Part shown: positions 40,525 to 52,799 of the stretch, one piece after another | Numbering within the stretch: the stretch's first letter is position 1 | How the letters are laid out: the number at the start of each line of letters is the position of its first letter | Origin: Chitinophagaceae bacterium | Lineage (GTDB): Bacteria; Bacteroidota; Bacteroidia; Chitinophagales; Chitinophagaceae | Assembly (NCBI GenBank): GCA_019638615.1 | Contig: JAHBTL010000008.1 | Location: 166,274 to 230,273, forward strand | Direction: 5' to 3' | DNA length: 64,000 nt | Made by a program: the position numbers and the translations under genes | Notes under the pieces: generated by a model | Database searches by the model: none | The model's input: the letters and a program-made list of their open reading frames with translations, nothing else | Told to the model about the DNA's origin: nothing

Positions 40525-41256
40525 TTATACCTTGCTCCTTACCCATTTCCTGAACAGGGGAAAATAATGCATTGCTTCCAGGATGCCTTCTGTTCCTTCG
40601 GCTTTGGCCTGGTAAATGTACTCATTGTCTGATGTAGCTTTCAATAGCCCCTCTTCTGCATTGCCCACAACAACTCCTTTATACCCGGCATTGAACAGGG
40701 AAAGGTCGTTAAAGGTATCGCCTGCAGTAAGCACTTCGCCGGGCGCAAATTCAAGGTAATTTACCAATGCATTCAGGGTAGATCCTTTATTCACTCCTTT
40801 GGGCAGAACGTCGGCGAATTTTCCGGCAGAGAGAATAAGCTCACATTCAAGTTGCGTCACTGCCCGTTTTAGTTTTTCAATATCGGTTTTGTCATTAAAA
40901 AAGAATGAACACCGCCTTTGCTGGGGAACCCGTTGGGGCTCAAGTCCCTCTATTCCCTCTATTGCTTTCAGTACTTTGTCGCTTCCAACCCATCTGTCGT
41001 CAATAGGCGATTGAAGGTTGACAACAGGGGTCATCGTATTGCCGTTTAAAATGGTGGCGCCCACATCACAAATAATATAGTTGGGGCGGGGTACAGGCAA
41101 TTCATGTGCAAATAAAGGCAGGATGCTTTCCATCCCCCTCCCTGTTACGAAAACCAGTTGTATACCAGGATGTTCGTTTATAATAGAATAAAGCTTTTGC
41201 CTGTATTGTAAATCGCCCGCTAAAAAAGTGCCATCAAGGTCTGTAGCCAGTAACAT
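40525..41256 (-). CDS. HAD-family phosphatase (Cof/S6PP-like)
   Basis: The 243-residue protein starts at 41256; the 66-base extension to 41322 looks unrelated. The HAD motif 1 DLDGT holds the nucleophile D6 and acid D8. Motif 2 VTGRG follows at about residue 45. The later motif GDTFNDLSLF holds the metal aspartates. The cap type and family style (LVFVTGRGMESILPL) resemble sucrose-6-phosphate phosphatase-like and mannosyl-3-phosphoglycerate phosphatase-like subgroups. The natural substrate, probably a sugar phosphate, is not predictable. It is convergent with tatA. Confidence 0.87.
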   Translation of the reverse strand: MLLATDLDGTFLAGDLQYRQKLYSIINEHPGIQLVFVTGRGMESILPLFAHELPVPRPNYIICDVGATILNGNTMTPVVNLQSPIDDRWVGSDKVLKAIEGIEGLEPQRVPQQRRCSFFFNDKTDIEKLKRAVTQLECELILSAGKFADVLPKGVNKGSTLNALVNYLEFAPGEVLTAGDTFNDLSLFNAGYKGVVVGNAEEGLLKATSDNEYIYQAKAEGTEGILEAMHYFPLFRKWVRSKV

Positions 41257-41355
41257 ATGATTGAATAATTTGTTCTTTAGATAACACGATACCTGTGCAA
41301 AAATAAAAATACAGCATAACAATTAGCATACCGGTAGCTTTTGTAGCTTGTATAT

Positions 41356-41459
41356 CAATGTCGTTTCCTTAAGATGTTGGTGAAAACACCAACATCGGCG
41401 GTCGCCGTTGCGGGTGTTTTCACCCGCAACTACACAGAAACGTTAAGGAAACGACATTG
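41356..41459. mobile_element. MITE/REPIN-like nested palindromic element
   Basis: A 17-bp terminal inverted repeat (CAATGTCGTTTCCTTAA at 41356-41372 and TTAAGGAAACGACATTG at 41443-41459) encloses two perfect hairpins. The first is GATGTTGGTG-AAAA-CACCAACATC (41373-41396), the second TTGCGGGTG-TTTT-CACCCGCAA (41408-41429). A short GGCG-GT-CGCC lies between them. The same 8-mer TTGTATAT flanks both sides (41348-41355 and 41462-41469), as a target duplication would. It encodes no protein, so if mobile it would depend on a transposase elsewhere. Confidence 0.75.
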
Positions 41460-41541
41460 GTTTGTATATACCAAAAATCACATTGAATCGTTTGATAAAA
41501 AGGTATAATCTTCTCATCCAGAACAAAAGTTATTGTGTACT

Positions 41542-50252: not shown

Positions 50253-52799
50253 ATGAAGTTTTTTTTACTGCCAGTTATTCTATTTTGCTTTATAAATGCA
50301 GACGCTCAAACAGAACGCGAAAACCAGCAGCCTGTTGAAATGTCTGTGCTGCAGTTTAAGTCGAGCAGGTTATACGGCAAGGTAATAGATCCTAATTCAG
50401 ATAAAGGGCTTGAAGCGGCATCGGTTCAGTTGTATTTGCATCCAAGAGACAGCCTGGTAGATGGATTGTTTACGAAAACAAACGGAGATTTCAGCTTTAA
50501 AAATCTTCGGCCCGGAACAACCTACCTGCTTATTATTTCAGCGCTGGGGTTCGAACCTTATGAGCAGATTATACATACAGACACGTTGAAAAGAAACAAT
50601 GAGGCTTCATTTGAAAGAGATCTGGGAAATATAATATTGCAAACCCAGGTAAAAGAGTTAGCGAATGTCAAAATCGTTGCAACCAAACCTGCGTTTGAGA
50701 TGAGCATAGACCGCAAAGTGTTCAATGTTTCGAAAAGCCTTACTGCTACCGGCGGAACAGCGGTAGATGTAATGAGGAATATTCCGTCGGTTTCCGTGGA
50801 TATTGACGGGAATGTGCAGCTTCGTAACAGCCCCCCGCTCATTTTTGTAGATGGGCGACCTACTATTCTTACACTGGACCAGATTCCGGCAGACAATATT
50901 GAACGGGTAGAGCTGGTTACCAATCCTTCTGCCAAATTCGATGCGGCTTCTTCTGCCGGCATTATTAACGTGGTTTTGAAAAAAGATAAACGCATAGGGC
51001 TTAACGGGATCGCCTCTGCTTCAATAGGTGTTCCGAAAGTATTGAACGGCAGCCTGAATATGAACCTGCGTGAAGGAAAAATTAATTTCTTTCTAAGTGC
51101 AAGCGCTAACCGGTCTGGCGGAAAAGCAAGAGGTGAAACGGAAAGGGAAAATAAAAAAGATGGGGTTACCCGCGACTTTTTTAACCAGGTTTCTTCCAAT
51201 GATCGTTTGCGGCGGTTTACTTCGCTTAACTATGGATTCGACTATTTTGTTGACAACCGAAATACCATTACAATTGCACATAGCGCAGGAGGCGGCCGTT
51301 TCAACAACAATGAACTACAGCAACAGGAATACCTGAACAATGTAAAAAATCCTGAGTATTATGGAAAACGTACCAGCATAGGCAATTCTGGTTTTAACTG
51401 GAACAATGTCCGGCTGAACTACAAGCACACGTTTCCTGAGAAAGGACGTGAATTGACTGCAGATGTTACTTATAATTTTGTAAAAGGCCATTCCAATTCC
51501 GAAATTGTAAACACATATAGTGCGCCTGACGGATCTGAATATAAACCGTCGGCAACAGTTAGGAACGATGGTAAGAATAGGAGCCCGCAATTAACTTTCC
51601 AGGCAGATTATGTTCACCCGGTGAATGAAAACTCAAAGTTTGAGGTGGGCCTAAGGAGCTATTACAAAAAATTCAGAAGCTTCTTTAATGTTTTTGAAGT
51701 AGGGAACAATGGGAGTGAAACAATATTACCGTTGAGCAATAACTACGAATACACGGAAAAAATCAATGCAGTATATGGCACCTATTCGCAGAAAATCGGA
51801 GGCTTTTCCTATCAGGTAGGATTGCGTGCGGAACATTCAAAATTTGATGGCTTACTGGTTGACAGCGCGTATAAATTCGGGTACCAGTATCCAACCGGCA
51901 TAAAAAATTTGTTTGACGGATTTTTTCCGAGCCTGTTCTTAACACAGGCGTTAACTGAAAGCGACCAGATGCAATTTAACTTTTCAAGAAGAATACGCCG
52001 TCCTGATTTCTGGCAGCTAAACCCGTTTATTGAGATAAATGACCCGGTTAACCTTCGCCAGGGTAACCCCGAGCTGCAGCCCGAGTTTATCAATTCGTTT
52101 GAAGTGAATTACAGTCATAACTACGACAAAGGAAATATGCTGGGTGTTTTGTACTGGCGTAATAATCCGCGCGATATTACTCAATACAGCGATACCATTA
52201 CCGCTGAGCAATACAACCAGTTACAAAATGCAGCGGTTGACCCCAATGCCATTTTAAACACCTTTGTGAATGCCAGTACAACCAACCGCTATGGTGCCGA
52301 GTTTACGCTGCAGTATAAAGCAGCCGGTAATTTCGACTTAACGCCATCGGTTAATATGCAATACAGGAGCGTAAATGCCAATATCAATAATGTTGACCTG
52401 AGCAATGAAGGCTTTAACTGGAATGCGAAACTGATTGCAAATTATAAGCTGAAAATAGAGAATAATGTAGTGCTCCACAATCTTAGCTTCCAGCTGACAG
52501 GACAATATGAATCTTCCCAGGTTATTCCCCAGGGCAGAAGACTTCCGCAGTATGGGGTGGATTTTGCCCTGAGGAAAGATTTCCTCAAAAACAACAGAGC
52601 CACGGTTACATTTGGAATCAACGACGTATTAAACTCACAGCGCTGGGGAACGATATATGATACTGAAAACTTTTACCAGGATTCATACCGTCGCTGGAAC
52701 GTGAGGAATTTCCGCCTTACGTTCAGCTATAAGTTTGGAAAGGCCGATTTCTCGCTCTTAAATATGTTAAGAGGACACCAGAACGATGAGGATTCTTAA
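50253..52799 (+). CDS. TonB-dependent outer-membrane receptor, OMP_b-brl_3 type
   Basis: The 848-residue protein has a signal peptide (1-18, ending ADAQ). Residues about 35-125 fit a carboxypeptidase-regulatory-like domain that opens many Bacteroidota receptors. A plug domain follows (about 140-245, with SVDIDGNVQLRNSPPLIFVDGRP). The rest is a beta-barrel with alternating pattern that ends NFRLTFSYKFG. It lacks a paired SusD gene and is not obviously regulated by a sigma/anti-sigma pair. The substrate is unknown; family members may also act in export or surface processes. The stop overlaps the csbD stop by four bases. Confidence 0.93.
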   Translation: MKFFLLPVILFCFINADAQTERENQQPVEMSVLQFKSSRLYGKVIDPNSDKGLEAASVQLYLHPRDSLVDGLFTKTNGDFSFKNLRPGTTYLLIISALGFEPYEQIIHTDTLKRNNEASFERDLGNIILQTQVKELANVKIVATKPAFEMSIDRKVFNVSKSLTATGGTAVDVMRNIPSVSVDIDGNVQLRNSPPLIFVDGRPTILTLDQIPADNIERVELVTNPSAKFDAASSAGIINVVLKKDKRIGLNGIASASIGVPKVLNGSLNMNLREGKINFFLSASANRSGGKARGETERENKKDGVTRDFFNQVSSNDRLRRFTSLNYGFDYFVDNRNTITIAHSAGGGRFNNNELQQQEYLNNVKNPEYYGKRTSIGNSGFNWNNVRLNYKHTFPEKGRELTADVTYNFVKGHSNSEIVNTYSAPDGSEYKPSATVRNDGKNRSPQLTFQADYVHPVNENSKFEVGLRSYYKKFRSFFNVFEVGNNGSETILPLSNNYEYTEKINAVYGTYSQKIGGFSYQVGLRAEHSKFDGLLVDSAYKFGYQYPTGIKNLFDGFFPSLFLTQALTESDQMQFNFSRRIRRPDFWQLNPFIEINDPVNLRQGNPELQPEFINSFEVNYSHNYDKGNMLGVLYWRNNPRDITQYSDTITAEQYNQLQNAAVDPNAILNTFVNASTTNRYGAEFTLQYKAAGNFDLTPSVNMQYRSVNANINNVDLSNEGFNWNAKLIANYKLKIENNVVLHNLSFQLTGQYESSQVIPQGRRLPQYGVDFALRKDFLKNNRATVTFGINDVLNSQRWGTIYDTENFYQDSYRRWNVRNFRLTFSYKFGKADFSLLNMLRGHQNDEDS

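Follow-up and report, generated by a model that had tools for sequence, protein, structure and literature searches.

A 104-bp folded repeat in a Chitinophagaceae genome, very probably an IS4-derived MITE

What kind of element is a 104-bp unit of nested palindromes, bordered by direct repeats, in the genome of a Chitinophagaceae bacterium, and what moved it there? The unit lies in the window, by which we mean the whole stretch of DNA that was analysed (64,000 nucleotides of contig JAHBTL010000008.1). The first-pass annotation suggested a small non-autonomous transposable element or a REPIN pair. We conclude that the unit is very probably a MITE derived from an IS4-family element, and that its movement was presumably in trans. 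The window copy lies in non-coding DNA, and no ORF of at least 80 aa overlaps it. Its parts are as follows.

41346..41355, no strand: left target-site duplication, 10 bp, GCTTGTATAT; 9 of 10 positions equal to the right copy
41356..41372, plus strand: left terminal inverted repeat (TIR), CAATGTCGTTTCCTTAA; perfect inverted repeat
41373..41396, plus strand: internal hairpin 1, 10-bp stem, loop AAAA; its counterpart in a second MITE family is a related stem that covaries
41397..41406, no strand: centre GGCG-GT-CGCC separating both large hairpins; GGCG..CGCC is mostly retained in both MITE families
41407..41430, plus strand: internal hairpin 2, 10-bp stem, loop TTTT (copies L011 and L013 have AAAA)
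41431..41442, no strand: spacer TACACAGAAACG, 12 nt, unpaired, confined to the right side
41443..41459, minus strand: right TIR; perfect complement of the left TIR
41460..41469, no strand: right target-site duplication, 10 bp, GTTTGTATAT

The perfect 17-bp TIRs were found as first described, as was hairpin 1 with its 10-bp stem and AAAA loop. The TTTT loop of hairpin 2 was also described correctly, and its stem is 10 bp rather than 9 bp. The octamer TTGTATAT is indeed identical on each side (41348-41355 and 41462-41469). The octamers belong to a 10-bp duplication that contacts both element ends, so the 8-bp repeat length and the two-base gap on the right that had been reported are replaced by a 10-bp duplication (GCTTGTATAT and GTTTGTATAT, 9/10) abutting the element.

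The RNA fold of the 104 nt has an energy of -61.4 kcal/mol (z -11.6), and none of 200 dinucleotide shuffles was equally good. A small third hairpin forms within GGCG-GT-CGCC, between the two large hairpins. The junction of this RNA fold thus has four arms, and the cloverleaf proposed earlier holds as a multi-branched structure, not as a three-way one. Folding with DNA parameters retains both large hairpins and the TIR stem and loses the small centre. In aligned copies read in the same orientation, the loop of hairpin 2 is TTTT in six and AAAA in two (L011, L013), a difference that suggests inversion of the hairpin top.

Searching the bacterium's own genome (G000, 7.18 Mb in 87 contigs) with the unit identified 12 places at E <= 4.4e-17, the window among them; one of the 12 matches the right part only. 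The unit is therefore not the single copy without homologues that the first-pass annotation had named as a reason to doubt mobility. Eight other two-ended copies are 86-98% identical to the window copy, which points to several rounds of spread. The same 17-bp end also borders elements of 70, 156, 368, about 284, and 816 bp in this genome (the about-284-bp elements at five places, with one end decayed in one). Among the 98 genomes searched, own genome included, the unit was found elsewhere only in G010 of the same genus, decayed or mosaic; the remaining matches at E <= 0.001 are hairpin-only or end-only. The 17-bp end itself (at most 1 mismatch) is present in 6 of 12 genomes of the genus, own genome included. 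The unit thus has the features of a MITE: it is short and multicopy, with TIRs and a target duplication, and carries no transposase gene.

The length of the duplication is clear from 16 two-ended elements of the own genome (the one-ended or decayed copies L014, L017, L018, L025, L026 and L027 are omitted from this count). When flanks are taken as 10 bp, 132 of 160 positions agree; flank lengths of 5-9 and 11-14 bp give only 25-46% agreement. Six of the 16 elements match at 10 of 10 positions, 11 match at 8 or more, and five have 7 or fewer matching target positions. Left and right flanks cross-paired between elements, as a control, reached at least 8 of 10 in 7 of 240 pairings. The expectation of many copies with differing flanks was borne out, with duplications of 10 bp in place of the expected 8 bp.

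An empty site was identified in G002, a genome of the same genus. The window flanks are present there (left 77%, right 85% identical) and the element is absent. The site reads AGCTTTTAAC-GCTTATATAT-ACCAAAATTG, with GCTTATATAT as the single 10-bp target copy, and its counterpart in the window is AGCTTTTGTA-GCTTGTATAT-[104 bp]-GTTTGTATAT-ACCAAAAATC. One target copy is what a single insertion with a 10-bp duplication predicts. The site thus provides an insertion polymorphism for the MITE, and answers the concern that the same flanks might occur in all relatives. Insertion of the element is as well demonstrated as sequence allows. The target consensus is AWTNNNNAWT, derived from 113 distinct ends that are partly related, as many are copies of one element in one genome.

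A candidate source of the transposase was identified by scanning contigs with the 17-bp end. The scan gave at least 108 matching stretches, of which 80 loci were listed, so counts from it are lower bounds. Among the matches listed is L146, a 1444-bp IS in the MAG Bacteroidetes GL140_5. Both of its ends are identical to the 17-bp TIRs of the MITE (the left one being CAATGTCGTTTCCTTAA), and it is flanked by the duplication AATTATCAAT (10/10). It encodes a 391-aa transposase, P0001, that matches PF01609 (E 3.4e-15) and the NCBIfam IS4 model NF033592 (148.8 bits, cut-off 115) and contains the motif YHYRWNVEENYKLFK, read by eye as Y-2-R-3-E-6-K. A PDB sequence search with P0001 gave three matches (E 0.17-1.2), none of them a transposase. 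L146 supplies what the first-pass annotation had proposed to look for, a full-length transposase gene bounded by identical 17-bp ends. Together with the dispersed copies with differing flanks and duplications, and the empty site, it upholds the reading of the unit as a small non-autonomous transposable element.

L146 and ten relatives make up the 11 long two-ended candidates; the ends of the relatives differ from those of the MITE by at least 1 base. Duplications are 10/10 in three (L146, L206, L221), 9/9 in L214 and 11/11 in L220, and six of the 11 have no clear duplication. In G014, at four loci, the exact TIR lies directly past the transposase C-terminus (read in L216). One further locus from the scan, L160, was dropped, as it contained masked stretches and, by eye, a different kind of transposase ORF.

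Both the element and the MITE ends fit the IS4 family, subgroup IS4, as far as their sequences can be compared, so that a repeat first thought to match no named family can now be assigned. For this subgroup, Table 1 of De Palmenaer et al. 2008 (PMC2266710) gives ends of the form -AATR--------WTW, a size of 1400-1650 bp, the YREK motif and direct repeats of 10-13 bp. The MITE ends (CAATGTCGTTTCCTTA) match this pattern, the 10-bp duplication of the MITEs and of L146 is within the 10-13 bp given in that table, the 1444 bp of L146 are within its size range, and P0001 has YREK (PMC2266710, Table 1). The 104-bp unit differs from elements of the subgroup in having no transposase and an interior other than that of the IS. 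Compared with known members, P0001 is 31% identical over its whole length to an ISPa1635-type transposase, and 21% identical over 313 aa to InsG of E. coli IS4. IS4 itself ends in TAATGCCGATCAGTTAAG and has a 12-bp duplication in MG1655, compared with 10 bp for the MITE. The ISPa1635-type gene has CAATGTCATCAACTT upstream; a matching right end was not found at that locus. The P0001, ISPa1635-type and IS4 transposases are too distant from each other to belong to one IS. The 17-bp end sequence had no match in the main texts of the literature searched.

L146, the cognate autonomous element, is from another lineage; within the genus only IS ends were seen, in G004, and no complete autonomous partner. 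In G004, 16 of 18 TIR matches (at most 1 mismatch) belong to IS ends that lie at contig breaks, nine copies of one end type and seven of the other, and the last base of the TIR is A or G. The second end type codes for a C-terminus similar to that of P0001 (score 81, compared with a maximum of 40 in 1000 shuffles). The interior of this IS was not found in the G004 assembly using one IS end as the query, and three weak matches of the query in other genomes have no transposase among their ORFs. At E 1e-10 the transposase is present in 16 of 394 genomes of the family. The own assembly has no match to the L146-type transposase at E <= 1e-10, which we count against present mobility. Five PF01609 matches in the own genome were considered as helpers and rejected, being without such ends (at most 4 mismatches) in the fetched loci. 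Among these is a 1.3-kb IS4-family IS with a DUF4372 and a DDE domain, present in two copies (L029 and L030, at G000:C1:257151 and C16:49660). Their ends are CATTAGTGTCCGG and their duplications 9 bp (by eye), and this IS is only a cousin of the helper type of the window element.

For the IS4-derived MITE we propose the following route. A transposase supplied from elsewhere would bind both CAATGTCGTTTCCTTAA ends, and the 104-bp unit would be moved by cut-and-paste, a mechanism taken from the family. Insertion would be through a 10-bp staggered cut, mostly at AT-rich sites resembling AWTNNNNAWT, leaving the adjacent 10-bp duplication. The core is inherited together with the MITE. From the identical ends, the helper was probably a transposase of the L146 type. 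Transposition in trans is itself inferred, and the supplying IS was probably once present in this lineage, given the IS ends with this TIR at contig breaks of G004. A previously unnamed repeat of the genus is thus placed as an IS4-derived MITE whose helper is of a known kind, and it now has precise boundaries, a defined duplication and a target-site preference.

The interior of the unit raises a different possibility. It consists of two inward-facing REP-like hairpins around GGCG..CGCC, and the unit could be a REPIN, in which two REP hairpins travel together as single-stranded DNA through the action of a RAYT (a Y1 HUH transposase). Hairpins of this kind also occur alone in the own and related genomes, and seven matches to Y1 transposase genes were identified in the own genome. 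In G016, such a hairpin lies some 130 bp upstream of one Y1 gene (L251), and where window-family copies retain the TACAC spacer, GTAG adjoins hairpin 2 (by eye). GTAG was seen neither beside hairpin 1 nor in the second family described below (by eye); the foot common to both hairpins is GGCG / CGCC, not a GTAG/CGTC tag. The hairpin was present at only one of 24 Y1 loci from five genomes, the L251 locus, and at none of the seven Y1 loci of the own genome; the L251 gene is followed by a different palindrome. The copies, moreover, are bordered by IS4-type TIRs and 10-bp duplications, and movement by a RAYT is not known to leave such ends and duplications. These ends and duplications leave the REPIN unsupported as the mobility mechanism, and we regard it as highly improbable. 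What survives of the REPIN suggestion is an interior resembling a REP pair; a link to a RAYT was not found.

Other folded repeats offer partial parallels. NEMIS, ERIC and RUP resemble the unit in being short, TIR-bounded and strongly folded, and differ from it in ends and hosts. These three are named as bacterial MITEs in PMC3733652, which also describes REP dimers inside long palindromes in A. variabilis. The unit resembles the REP dimers and REPINs of that source in its two inverted hairpins, with bases conserved at one foot (PMC3733652). It differs from REPINs in having no GTAG or CGTC tag common to both hairpins and both families, and in its IS-type ends and target duplication.

If IS4-type ends account for movement of the MITE, what is the palindromic core for? 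GGTG-loop-CACC hairpins followed by GGC(G) occur singly or paired in relatives and in the own genome. The pattern hairpin-GGCG..CGCC has 41 matches in 13 of 98 genomes; 34 of the matches fall within the genus, and the reversed pattern has 2 (one core may match on both strands). Among these matches is a second MITE family whose ends are of the GGGTGCATT(n)AAATTGTCG type and whose layout is that of the window family (end, hairpin, GGCG..CGCC, hairpin, spacer, end), with the spacer on the same side (by eye).

Second-family members L312, L306, L287 and L315: G004, G002 and G000:C13 (about 51450-51560); L287 and L315 represent one insertion shared by two genomes

Duplications of 8-9 bp were found at 4 of 11 second-family loci, those with both ends passing the filter, and two of the four represent a single site present in two genomes. 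The ends of the two families are not alike. Their cores are related in sequence (score 22, compared with a maximum of 5 for 5000 random sequences of the same fold). In this genus, one core type thus occurs within two kinds of ends, IS4-type with 10-bp duplications and GGGTGCATT-type with duplications of 8-9 bp. That two differently ended MITE families share a related folded core was unexpected.

The core may be a passenger palindrome, an RNA signal, or a cruciform that unites the ends of a very short element. One possibility is that it is a selected functional unit (a structured RNA, a terminator or insulator, or a protein site) for which the IS ends are merely a vehicle. In its favour, related cores with covarying stems occur in two MITE families of unrelated ends, and the RNA fold is strong on both strands. 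In an alignment of 18 cores (17 distinct; the pattern misses L035, L289, L308, L291, L303 and L279 and the poor fits L044 and L286 are omitted), 97.5% of 408 cells are paired. Cells changed on both sides number 48, compared with 18.1 when shuffled, and the covariation score is 0.344, compared with 0.128 after shuffling and no more than 0.078 after sliding. For two of the five covariation measures, the observed values are no better than those of shuffles: pairs with double-sided change (8 of 24, mean 6.8, equalled by 61 of 500 shuffles) and further pair types (observed number reached in 211 of 500). Most double changes separate one family from the other and so represent few independent events. 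Rfam searches of five loci gave two matches (E 0.33 and 0.69) far below gathering scores, which we take as chance. Only one weak terminator-like site was found, where shuffles yield 0.5. The window copy has a minus-strand ORF (40525-41322) on one side and plus-strand ORFs on the other, and is upstream of both neighbours, which also counts against this reading. We consider a selected functional core unlikely.

Alternatively, the core could aid transposition, if a cruciform unites the TIRs for synapsis in an element whose length is below the persistence length of DNA. Other MITEs with IS4 ends bear on this. In records from Flavobacterium, Pinibacter, Niabella and Desulfobacteraceae, the interiors look unrelated in sequence and are often palindromic (by eye). 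In 40 IS4-end MITEs from several genera, interiors without TIRs are more strongly palindromic than the flanks, with z < -3 in 22 of 40 compared with 3 of 76 flank segments; the 40 were hand-picked, with several near-identical copies omitted, and are neither complete nor independent. The trend with size is weak (15 of 25 at 200 bp or less, 7 of 15 among longer elements, with related copies among the 40), and L127, L134, L145 and L162 are short elements without interior structure. Palindromes may also simply be frequent passengers. We consider a role of the core in synapsis unlikely.

Equally unlikely is a broader proposal, that palindromic REP-like cores are separate units wrapped by unrelated transposon ends and kept because a cruciform lets short elements join their ends, which would make palindromic cores a design rule for short bacterial MITEs in general. 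Occurrence of a core without ends was examined for one core, the palindrome of Flavobacterium sp. ZT3R18. It is present at 14 sites (23 matches, at most 1 mismatch), nine of them near at least one IS4-type end (at most 4 mismatches) and five without. This palindrome has no match in the own genome or in the Pinibacter genome. Whether structured MITE interiors are junk, RNA signals or transposition machinery is a neglected question, made testable by the related core of the two families and by the palindrome excess within the IS4-end MITEs examined.

Several other repeats and mobile elements were observed. A 284-bp MITE family in the own genome (L021, L022, L023, L028, L027) has the same IS4-type ends, a CTTGAGGCAATCAACAACTTAA-like interior sequence, and duplications of 7-10 of 10 in the four members with both ends. 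The 816-bp element at L024:1095-1910 (G000:C12:286694-287509) has the same kind of ends and a 9/10 target duplication. A transposase was not found in it; a DKNYY domain (PF13644) is encoded by one of its two overlapping ORFs, and the element looks like a passenger-carrying mobile insertion cassette. Mosaics with a GGGGCTGACCAAAAAGG-like module in place of one hairpin arm were identified in three genomes of the genus (L019:1064-1431, L050:1501-1730, L303). A RAYT-like Y1 gene (L267, G000:C12:250336) is flanked by CGAAGTC-loop-GACTTCG palindromes, which are perhaps the REP system of the own genome. Another dispersed repeat, with GGTTGTTGGTGAAAACAC..CAACAACGGC beside a AACAATACTATGCAGC-like stretch, is present in the own genome (L273, L274, L276, L280) and in relatives (L039, L042, L048).
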